A DNA stretch of 64,000 nucleotides from Chaetoderma sp. LZ-2023a (lineage: Eukaryota; Mollusca; Caudofoveata; Chaetodermatida; Chaetodermatidae), in the NCBI GenBank assembly GCA_034401795.1, contig CM067365.1, positions 10,060,145 to 10,124,144 on the forward strand, written 5' to 3'. Of the stretch, positions 4,085 through 10,000 are shown piece by piece. A program made the translations under genes and the position numbers. Position 1 is the first letter of the stretch, and each line of letters starts with the position of its first letter. Under the pieces are notes generated by a model. That model saw only the letters and a list, made by a program, of their open reading frames with translations. It was not told the DNA's origin and did no database searches.

Positions 4085-7000
4085 CTACAATCAGAAAGGT
4101 CATGAATTAATATATCGAGGCTGAAATTCAAGAATGATTAACCCTTACGACAGCACCATCTTCCACCAAATTTGTTTAAAAATGTACACCAGTTCATCTT
4201 TTAATTTAATTTGATAATTAAAAATTTTGACATCAGAGTGCTAAGAGTTAAACCACTGCTTATTCTAACCATGGTAAGCAATAATAAGCAATACCAGGTA
4301 ACAACTTAACCTTTTGATGAACAGGATACCCAGAAATGGCTTATGCATTAGCCACAAGATACGTCCATTTGCAGACAACATGAAGAATATTTTGCTACTT
4401 GTATTGCTAGGGCTTTTTCAGTGGTAAGTTTCTGAAACATTCATCCTTTGGTCTGAAACTTGATCATTCTCGTGACCAGTTATAACCATAAACGGATTAA
4501 TGATATAGGGTTGAAAGCTCCTGTAGTCAGCATATGTGGGCAACTTGTGATTTCTCAGACTGTATGTACGTACCTAACTGCCATCATGGCCAGTAGAGCA
4601 GCACGTATTGACAACTTGTGATTTCTCAGACTGTATGTACCTAACTGCCATCAGGGCTAGTAGAGAGCAGCACGTACATGTATTGACAACTTGTGATTTC
4701 TCAGACTGTATGTACGTACCTAACTGCCATCAGGGCTAGTAGAGAGCAGCATGTATTGACAACTTGTGATTTCTCAGACTATGTACCTAACTGCCATCAG
4801 GGCTAGTAGAGAGCAGCACGTACATGTATTGACAACTTGTGATTTCTCAGACTGTGTGTACGTACCTAACTGCCATCAGGGCTAGTAGAGAGCAGCACGT
4901 ATTGACAACTTGTGATTTCTCAGACTGTATGTACGTACCTAACTGCCATCAGGGCTAGTAGAGAGCAGCACGTACATGTATTGACAACTTGTGATTTCTC
5001 AGACTATGTACGTACCTAACTGCCATCAGGGCTAGTAGAGAGCAGCACGTACATGTATTGACAACTTGTAATTTCTCAGACTGTATGTACGTACCTAACT
5101 GCCATCAGGGCTAGTAGAGAGCAGCACGTACATGTATTGACAACTTGTAATTTCTCAGACTGTATGTACGTACCTAACTGCCATCAGGGCTAGTAGAGAG
5201 CAGCACGTACATGTATTGACAACTTGTGATTTCTCAGACTATGTACGTACCTAACTGCCATCAGGGCTAGTAGAGAGCAGCACGTACATGTATTGACAAC
5301 TTGTAATTTCTCAGACTGTGTGTACGTACCTAACTGCCATCAGGGCTAGTAGAGAGCAGCACGTACATGTATTGACAACTTGTAATTTCTCAGACTATGT
5401 ACGTACCTAACTGCCATCAGGGCTAGTAGAGAGCAGCACGTACATGTATTGACAACTTGTAATTTCTCAGACTGTATGTACGTACCTAACTGCCATCAGG
5501 GCTAGTAGAGAGCAGCATGTACACGTATTGACAACTTGTGATTTCTCAGACTATGTACGTACCTAACTGCCATCAGGGCTAGTAGAGAGCAGCACGTACA
5601 TGTATTGACAACTTGTAATTTCTCAGACTGTATGTACGTACCTAACTGCCATCAGGGCTAGTAGAGAGCAGCACGTATTGACAACTTGTAATTTCTCAGA
5701 CTGTATGTACGTACCTAACTGCCATCAGGGCTAGTAGAGAGCAGCACGTATTGACAACTTGTGATTTCTCAGACTGTATGTACCTAACTGCCATCAGGGC
5801 TAGTAGAGAGCAGCACGTACATGTATTGACAACTTGTAATTTCTCAGACTGTATGTACGTACCTAACTGCCATCAGGGCTAGTAGAGAGCAGCACGTACA
5901 TGTATTGACAACTTGTAATTTCTCAGACTGTATGTACGTACCTAACTGCCATCAGGGCTAGTAGAGAGCAGCACGTACATGTATTGACAACTTGTGATTT
6001 CTCAGACTATGTACGTACCTAACTGCCATCAGGGCTAGTAGAGAGCAGCACGTACATGTATTGACAACTTGTAATTTCTCAGACTATGTACGTACCTAAC
6101 TGCCATCAGGGCTAGTAGAGAGCAGCACGTACATGTATTGACAACTTGTAATTTCTCAGACTATGTACGTACCTAACTGCCATCAGGGCTAGTAGAGAGC
6201 AGCACGTATTGACAACTTGTGATTTCTCAGACTGTATGTACGTACCTAACTGCCATCAGGGCTAGTAGAGAGCAGCACGTATTGACAACTTGTAATTTCT
6301 CAGACTGTATGTACGTACCTAACTGCCATCAGGGCTAGTAGAGAGCAGCACGTATTGACAACTTGTGATTTCTCAGACTGTATGTACGTACCTAACTGCC
6401 ATCAGGGCTAGTAGAGAGCAGCACGTATTGACAACTTGTAATTTCTCAGACTATGTACGTACCTAACTGCCATCAGGGCTAGTAGAGAGCAGCACGTATT
6501 GACAACTTGTAATTTCTCAGACTGTATGTACGTACCTAACTGCCATCAGGGCTAGTAGAGAGCAGCACGTATTGACAACTTGTAATTTCTCAGACTGTGT
6601 GTACGTACCTAACTGCCATCAGGGCTAGTAGAGAGCAGCACGTACATGTATTGACAACTTGTGATTTCTCAGACTGTATGTACGTACCTAACTGCCATCA
6701 GGGCTAGTAGAGAGCAGCATGTACACGTATTGACAACTTGTGATTTCTCAGACTGTATGTACGTACCTAACTGCCATCAGGGCTAGTAGAGAGCACACGT
6801 ACATGTATTGACAACTTGTAATTTCTCAGACTATGTACGTACCTAACTGCCATCAGGGCTAGTAGAGAGCAGCACGTACATGTATTGACAACTTGTGATT
6901 TCTCAGACTGTATGTACGTACCTAACTGCCATCAGGGCTAGTAGAGAGCAGCACGTATTGACAACTTGTGATTTCTCAGACTATGTACGTACCTAACTGC

Positions 7001-10000
7001 CATCAGGGCTAGTAGAGAGCAGCACGTATTGACAACTTGTGATTTCTCAGACTATGTACGTACCTAACTGCCATCAGGGCTAGTAGAGAGCAGCACGTAT
7101 TGACAACTTGTGATTTCTCAGACTGTATGTACGTACCTAACTGCCATCAGGGCTAGTAGAGAGCAGCACGTACATGTATTGACAACTTGTAATTTCTCAG
7201 ACTGTATGTACGTACCTAACTGCCATCAGGGCTAGTAGAGAGCAGCACGTACATGTATTGACAACTTGTAATTTCTCAGACTATGTACGTACCTAACTGC
7301 CATCAGGGCTAGTAGAGAGCAGCACGTACATGTATTGACAACTTGTAATTTCTCAGACTATGTACGTACCTAACTGCCATCAGGGCTAGTAGAGAGCAGC
7401 ACGTATTGACAACTTGTGATTTCTCAGACTATGTACGTACCTAACTGCCATCAGGGCTAGTAGAGAGCAGCACGTATTGACAACTTGTGATTTCTCAGAC
7501 TATGTACGTACCTAACTGCCATCAGGGCTAGTAGAGAGCAGCACGTATTGACAACTTGTGATTTCTCAGACTGTATGTACGTACCTAACTGCCATCAGGG
7601 CTAGTAGAGAGCAGCACGTACATGTATTGACAACTTGTGATTTCTCAGACTATGTACGTACCTAACTGCCATCAGGGCTAGTAGAGAGCAGCACGTATTG
7701 ACAACTTGTAATTTCTCAGACTGTATGTACGTACCTAACTGCCATCAGGGCTAGTAGAGAGCAGCACGTACATGTATTGACAACTTGTGATTTCTCAGAC
7801 TATGTACGTACCTAACTGCCATCAGGGCTAGTAGAGACCAGCACGTACATGTATTGACAACTTGTGATTTCTCAGACTATGTACGTACCTAACTGCCATC
7901 AGGGCTAGTAGAGAGCAGCACGTACATGTATTGACAACTTGTGATTTCTCAGACTGTATGTACGTACCTAACTGCCATCAGGGCTAGTAGAGAGCAGCAC
8001 GTACATGTATTGACAACTTGTAATTTCTCAGACTGTATGTACGTACCTAACTGCCATCAGGGCTAGTAGAGAGCAGCATGTACATGTATTGACAACTTGT
8101 AATTTCTCAGACTGTATGTACGTACCTAACTGCCATCAGGGCTAGTAGAGACCAGCACGTACATGTATTGACAACTTGTGATTTCTCAGACTATGTACCT
8201 AACTGCCATCAGGGCTAGTAGAGAGCAGCACGTACATGTATTGACAACTTGTGATTTCTCAGACTATGTACGTACCTAACTGCCATCAGGGCTAGTAGAG
8301 AGCAGCACGTACATGTATTGACAACTTGTAATTTCTCAGACTGTATGTACGTACCTAACTGCCATCAGGGCTAGTAGAGAGCAGCACGTACATGTATTGA
8401 CAACTTGTAATTTCTCAGACTGTATGTACGTACCTAACTGCCATCAGGGCTAGTAGAGAGCAGCACGTACATGTATTGACAACTTGTAATTTCTCAGACT
8501 GTATGTACGTACCTAACTGCCATCAGGGCTAGTAGAGAGCAGCACGTACATGTATTGACAACTTGTGATTTCTCAGACTGTACGTACCTAACTGCCATCA
8601 GGGCTAGTAGAGAGCAGCACGTACACGTATTGACAACTTGTAATTTCTCAGACTGTATGTACGTACCTAACTGCCATCAGGGCTAGTAGAGAGCAGCACG
8701 TATTGACAACTTGTAATTTCTCAGACTGTATGTACGTACCTAACTGCCATCAGGGCTAGTAGAGAGCAGCACGTATTGACAACTTGTGATTTCTCAGACT
8801 GTGTGTACGTACCTAACTGCCATCAGGGCTAGTAGAGAGCAGCACGTATTGACAACTTGTGATTTCTCAGACTGTATGTACGTACCTAACTGCCATCAGG
8901 GCTAGTAGAGAGCAGCACGTACATGTATTGACAACTTGTGATTTCTCAGACTGTGTGTACGTACCTAACTGCCATCAGGGCTAGTAGAGAGCAGCACGTA
9001 CATGTATTGACAACTTGTAATTTCTCAGACTGTATGTACGTACCTAACTGCCATCAGGGCTAGTAGAGAGCAGCACGTACATGTATTGACAACTTGTAAT
9101 TTCTCAGACTGTATGTACGTACCTAACTGCCATCAGGGCTAGTAGAGAGCAGCACGTACATGTATTGACAACTTGTAATTTCTCAGACTATGTACGTACC
9201 TAACTGCCATCAGGGCTAGTAGAGAGCAGCACGTACATGTATTGACAACTTGTAATTTCTCAGACTGTATGTACGTACCTAACTGCCATCAGGGCTAGTA
9301 GAGAGCAGCACGTACATGTATTGACAACTTGTGATTTCTCAGACTATGTACGTACCTAACTGCCATCAGGGCTAGTAGAGAGCAGCACGTATTGACAACT
9401 TGTAATTTCTCAGACTGTATGTACGTACCTAACTGCCATCAGGGCTAGTAGAGAGCAGCACGTACATGTATTGACAACTTGTGATTTCTCAGACTATGTA
9501 CGTACCTAACTGCCATCAGGGCTAGTAGAGACCAGCATGTATTGACGATTTGTGATTTATCGGACTGTATGTATTCACGTTGCTCACACGATTCAAAATT
9601 CTCACCCCAGCCACCATCCTGCATCTGCTTGGAGACAAGAAACTCGCAGCCATTTTTCATTTCAGGCGTGACAACTCTGCAGACAGGTATAATGCCAAGG
9701 TTATTTAGGATGAGTTAAGCTTTTTCTAACATTGGTTACTCATAATTGTATGATAACTAGGGAAAATGGAAAATTACTTTTAAATAGATTATTTTATTTT
9801 ATTTACAAGAAACAGGTACAAAAGCACATATTATAAACAATTCTAACAACTTCAACAACGAAGGCACCACAGCCTGATAGATTTAGTTGATATTTTAAAA
9901 ATTATTTATTGCCTGGAAATTTTCCAAACTTCCAATGCCAATTTCTAGTGCTCCTGCTGAACAACCCTGAACATGAATTTAAAATCTTGCATAGACCTGA

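Follow-up and report, generated by a model that had tools for sequence, protein, structure and literature searches.

A long minisatellite homologous to an exon–intron boundary in a lanosterol synthase gene, with further boundary arrays in the same genome

Boundary repeats described so far

Tandem repeats over exon–intron boundaries, called 'mirages', have been described in amphioxus in Adh3, the globin genes BflGb6 and BflGb9, and TnC, with imperfect relatives in PGBD5. They are minisatellite-like, lie on the donor or acceptor side, have units of 10–160 bp (many with AG/GT) and are reported to leave regular splicing undisturbed (PMC3087553, PMC3902484). In human paralogs within segmental duplications, minisatellites with units of about 30 bp at exon–intron boundaries alter intron structure (PMC2812944), and in potato a tandem duplication across an intron–exon boundary copies splice signals during intron gain (PMC4974935). 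The array characterized here, in intron 17 of a lanosterol synthase (LSS) gene, is a boundary repeat of this already described type, unusually long and in another lineage. The sequence-only reading that first pointed to it had considered such satellites an undescribed class, but the amphioxus and human repeats precede it (PMC3087553, PMC3902484, PMC2812944).

Like the amphioxus mirages, the units in LSS introns 17 and 5 span or copy the exon–intron boundary, and the intact frame predicted for LSS is consistent with the undisturbed splicing reported there. Unlike them, intron 17 holds 65 units, whereas the two haplotypes of BflGb6 have 3 and 6 (PMC3087553). The hosts reported for mirages are cephalochordates (not a defining trait), whereas the host here looks spiralian and may be a mollusc—among the best 120 of 4,026 protein matches, LSS is nearer to Lingula (74%), Solemya (73%) and Haliotis (73%) than to amphioxus (68%). 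The human paralog repeats likewise consist of minisatellite units at an exon–intron boundary, but they have ~4 copies on average and involve alternative or new introns in recent paralogs (PMC2812944), whereas here one long array lies inside one intron of an enzyme gene. Splice signals copied by tandem duplication over a boundary are also shared with the potato case (PMC4974935); however, LSS has no new intron, aligning through to human LSS with the array inside intron 17. Our literature search for boundary repeats outside lancelets and human paralogs covered a selection of the papers listed and does not imply their absence. What is new here is the length of the arrays, a lineage outside lancelets (it looks spiralian) and recurrence within the same genome.

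The lanosterol synthase locus

The window (the whole 64,000-nucleotide stretch analysed) is part of contig C7, in a genome assembled as 2,753 contigs and 2.44 Gb in size; the data are this one assembly, from which all array copy numbers are taken. Our own gene model places an LSS gene of 19 exons and 735 codons on the minus strand, with GT–AG junctions and an intact frame; exon 19 lies beyond the window (L009). The protein matches PF13243 and PF13249 (Pfam) and aligns nearly full length with human LSS (1w6k; residues 7–729). No RNA family reached its gathering score in window positions 1–12000.

Two retroelements on the minus strand, with matches to reverse transcriptase (RVT_1) and weak ones to RNase H, lie within LSS intron 11 (23802–28856) and upstream of exon 1 (51405–56622); their second large frames had no Pfam match, and from the overlapping long frames both look DIRS-like. 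Nearly the same 19-bp minisatellite occurs on both sides of the intron 11 element (22699–22887 and 29919–30550), as though its insertion had split a single array; the block on the donor side begins 44 nt past the exon 11 donor. Beyond the window (L013; 65711–73135 in window coordinates), a series of long open frames on the plus strand resembles, by eye, another retroelement.

An array homologous to the exon end in intron 17

Exon 17 (9506..9676, minus strand; 171 nt, donor +1 at 9505) is followed directly by 65 complete units of 67–79 bp that tile positions 9505–4574 (4,932 bp), with a 66th unit that breaks off after 4573. The array as a whole occupies 4541..9505 (minus strand), and the next exon past it is exon 18 (4006..4084, minus strand). 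Twenty-four units measure 79 bp, 16 measure 77 bp, 15 measure 73 bp, 5 measure 71 bp and 5 have other lengths, and each combines a copy of the last 68–73 nt of exon 17 with AG/GTAC. The homology to the exon end proposed from sequence alone held up: unit identity to the exon tail averages 0.912 over aligned columns (range, 0.882–0.939), and self-alignment of the exon tail with the commonest unit gave a score of 91, compared with a maximum of 24 across 2,000 shuffles of that unit. In their own intron the last 40 nt of exon 17 reached a score of 75, whereas none of the 17 other LSS introns gave more than 19. All 66 matches of a genome DNA search with this sequence fell at the LSS locus, in a search whose first pass admitted one candidate place, so that copies elsewhere are possible.

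The gap-free form colinear with the exon is the 73-bp unit (64/73 identical to the last 73 nt of exon 17) rather than the 71-bp unit first named, whereas the earlier observation that most units depart from the exon at the Trp codon was borne out (62 of 65 differ, 1 is gapped and 2 keep TGG). Four exon–array differences, at −57, −54, −44 and −42, are fixed in 65/65 units. The last 26 nt of the exon tail contain no fixed difference, which exchange between exon 17 and the array could explain. Retention of the donor was also confirmed, as GTAC follows GGCAGTTAG both at the authentic donor and in every one of the 65 units (66/66), with GTACGT in 62 and GTACAT in 4.

Near-identical tandem arrays can be mis-sized during assembly. 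Here, however, 23 distinct unit types are interspersed, unique LSS sequence lies on both flanks and similar arrays occur on other contigs, and we regard an assembly artefact or a wrong copy number as highly improbable. We found no higher-order repeats among the unit types (the longest repeated run is 3, and runs of at least 3 occurred in 187/300 shuffles); adjacent identical units number 9, compared with a shuffled mean of 5.4.

We rejected a coding role for the array on its frame. Unit lengths are mostly out of frame (remainders of 1, 2 and 0 in 42, 21 and 2 of 65 units), and with any number of units from 1 to 65 retained ahead of exon 18, translation ends after codon 686 rather than 735. A role of the units in splicing itself, either through TTAG/GTACGT as recursive sites or through 16-nt micro-exons of the form CTACTAG/CCCTGATGGCAGTTAG/GT, would be suggested by the AG/GT at every junction. 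The sequence-only reading denied the units a good 3′ splice site, which is too strong: the commonest unit, the one scored, contains GCTGCTCTCTACTAG, and the stretch ahead of CTACTAG has a pyrimidine share of 0.71, inside the range of the 18 real LSS acceptors (0.47–1.00). Its suggestion of a recursive junction retains the AG/GT but otherwise gains little, given that the stretch preceding TTAG in the same commonest unit has a pyrimidine share of just 0.53. Moreover, array sequence retained behind exon 17 leads to the stop after codon 686 (as translated with whole units), and we consider either splicing role very unlikely.

Other boundary repeats in the gene

Intron 5 contains a second array of this kind (40010..40784, minus strand), built from the last ~46 nt of exon 5 (40785..40881, minus strand). 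Its 46-bp unit is 41/46 identical to the last 46 nt of the exon, and the exon 5 tail scores 71 against the intron that follows it but no more than 23 against other LSS introns. The exon tail is joined to GTATGT in 10 of about 17 units, to GTGTGT in 2 and to GAATGT in 2; thus the donor motif is kept in only part of the units, compared with 66/66 in intron 17. When an LSS protein was used in a tblastn search, many intron 5 units were matched (window 40014–40776), as were intron 17 units, so automatic annotation could mistake such arrays for extra exons.

The array in intron 18 differs in composition. It fills 1..4005 (minus strand) and continues past the window to −1481 in L009, with a 26-bp unit that starts from intron base +1 (GTATGAAATG) and is present in about 212 copies (TRF, 212 copies at 86% match); GTAT[GC]A occurs 182 times across 5,487 bp of the intron. 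The exon 18 tail is absent from this array (self-comparison score, 12). The 16 LSS exon tails other than those of exons 5 and 17 scored 12 to 25 against their own introns, intron 18 included, with introns 3 (25 versus 23) and 14 (23 versus 22) slightly above their own controls. On the acceptor side, a short duplication lies over the exon 3 acceptor (46023..46126, minus strand; 47 bp, 2.1 copies, 82% match), where the intron 2 score was 26, compared with at most 20 in others. At the exon 16 acceptor, a degenerate and doubtful repeat (11871..11971, minus strand; 37 bp, 2.7 copies, 70% match) was rejected as too weak: the minus-strand TRF run did not report it, and its self-comparison score was at background level.

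Survey of myosin and chaperonin genes

Family searches returned 65 myosin-head matches (PF00063) and 56 chaperonin matches (PF00118), of which 109/121 were examined (62/65 myosin and 47/56 chaperonin), as 30 loci plus sets of 20, 20, 19 and 20 stretches; self-comparison covered the first 70 matches and TRF all 109. These numbers are approximate: some matches are copies on alternative contigs or overlap (C1286, C15), some extend into stops, and the profile match was used to place exon ends.

The chaperonin family yielded one donor array (L053): about 17 copies of a 28-bp unit (GTGAGGAGCAGG...) begin exactly at the donor after ACATCTTTG and end near C17:2008615. No exon sequence was found in this array. 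The stretch of exon after it (L100) starts GSREQLA behind CAG, consistent with a join. One acceptor array was found in the myosin family (L082), with 26- and 48-bp units that contain TTTCAG and share CGTAATGGTTTT with the exon head, and some further bases more loosely. Most sampled introns had no boundary array, and minisatellites of at least 5 copies were present in 18/70 sampled loci.

Several candidates were not counted: L083 and L086, with donor-side arrays 44 and 68 nt past the match end; L111, with a GTG-rich simple repeat shortly past the donor; L115, in which an array stops 48 nt ahead of the match start; L034, with a 1.9-copy 20-bp repeat at the match end that runs through stops; and L017, L032, L046, L069 and L084, with upstream trinucleotide repeats. 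At L086, L083, L075, L076 and L084, minisatellites with 7 to 15 copies occur at distances of 44 to 157 nt past myosin match ends, without contact, and illustrate the abundance of intronic minisatellites in this genome. Two frames without interruption (548 and 549 aa; G000:C19:188218-189726 and G000:C18:1690826-1692328) span the whole Cpn60 profile; being intronless, they may represent sequence of bacterial origin, or retrocopies, within the assembly.

Position of the arrays

With the 19-bp array split by the retroelement counted once, we picked seven minisatellite arrays of at least 9 copies and a unit of at least 10 bp in LSS introns. Three of the seven span or abut a donor (random placement, P = 0.009, a post hoc value for hand-picked arrays in a gene chosen for the finding) and four lie away from donors. 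Donor arrays occur at 3/18 LSS donors and 1/109 other exon matches (Fisher P = 0.009; 95% interval of the latter rate, 0.02–5%). Boundary arrays thus recur, are rare and are enriched in LSS. TRF coverage of LSS donors showed no excess (3/18, P = 0.93–0.95) in a test in which the long boundary arrays themselves inflate coverage; nor did array ends near LSS donors (1/18, P = 0.24–0.66). At LSS acceptors, the array-end test gave P = 0.02–0.08 at score cut-offs of 30–100 and nothing at 200.

These figures bear on whether the intron 17 array is an ordinary intronic minisatellite in contact with an exon by chance. The general abundance of minisatellites (18/70 loci), the four LSS arrays away from donors and the flat TRF coverage tests fit such a reading. 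Yet the exon tail itself is present in two LSS arrays, the chaperonin array begins exactly at +1 and the random-placement value, post hoc as it is, points the same way; we judge chance contact unlikely. A broader and more tentative idea, which we hold to be somewhat less probable than its negation, is that minisatellites in this genome are seeded time and again by splice junctions, and mainly by donors. Arrays start at +1 in LSS intron 18 and in L053, and inside the exon tail in LSS introns 5 and 17, and the genes concerned are unrelated; on this idea, a fair proportion of introns across the genome might open with dozens of copies of their own donor.

Origin and consequences

We observed homology, phase, copy number, donor retention, an intact LSS frame and recurrence in other introns and genes directly. 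The account that we consider likely treats intron 17 as a mirage-type boundary minisatellite that arose by a duplication across the exon 17/intron 17 junction and then expanded on the intron side, with exon 17 and the first donor under selection and the array donors as tolerated decoys. The initial tandem duplication spanning the junction was probably aided by short similarity between the start of the units (GTACGTACATACAG) and the exon sequence found 73 nt ahead of the donor (GTGAATACATACAG). Both arrays that contain an exon tail show such a likeness, between the exon sequence one unit ahead of the donor and the repeat start (GTGAATACATACAG versus GTACGTACATACAG; ATGTATATAGCTGGG versus GTATGTAAAGCTGGG; compared by eye, without a null), which suits duplication through short similarity. 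Expansion on the intron side would have followed by unequal exchange or slippage. The arrays of intron 18 and L053 contain no exon sequence, so the exon-duplication route does not cover those two.

A short exon favours its first donor, and splicing would keep to the first donor here because it closes a short exon of 171 nt. As retained units stop the frame after codon 686, exon 17 and its first donor should be under selection; any use of an array donor would lead to a premature stop, and the array donors are probably decoys without a necessary function.

U1 can suppress premature cleavage and polyadenylation (telescripting), and about 66 U1 sites every ~75 nt might act in this way or tune splicing. 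In keeping with such a platform, 66/66 sites keep AG/GTAC, 62 equal the authentic donor score (3.98), the 26 nt ahead of the donor are free of fixed differences and the GTAT[GC]A motifs of intron 18 would add further sites. However, any motif persists in young or homogenised tandem copies, some intron 5 units have lost the donor and such an array is missing from most sampled introns. The extra donors might serve as a U1 platform or in some other way, but such a role is unsupported; we think a functional donor array quite unlikely, preferring tolerated decoys.

Dozens of identical strong donors right after a constitutive exon constitute a natural test of how the spliceosome chooses the first site. 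That a single genome, probably spiralian, has boundary arrays in three gene families suggests that they are not a lancelet oddity. Such repeats may feed intron growth or the birth of new introns, the latter as proposed for amphioxus.
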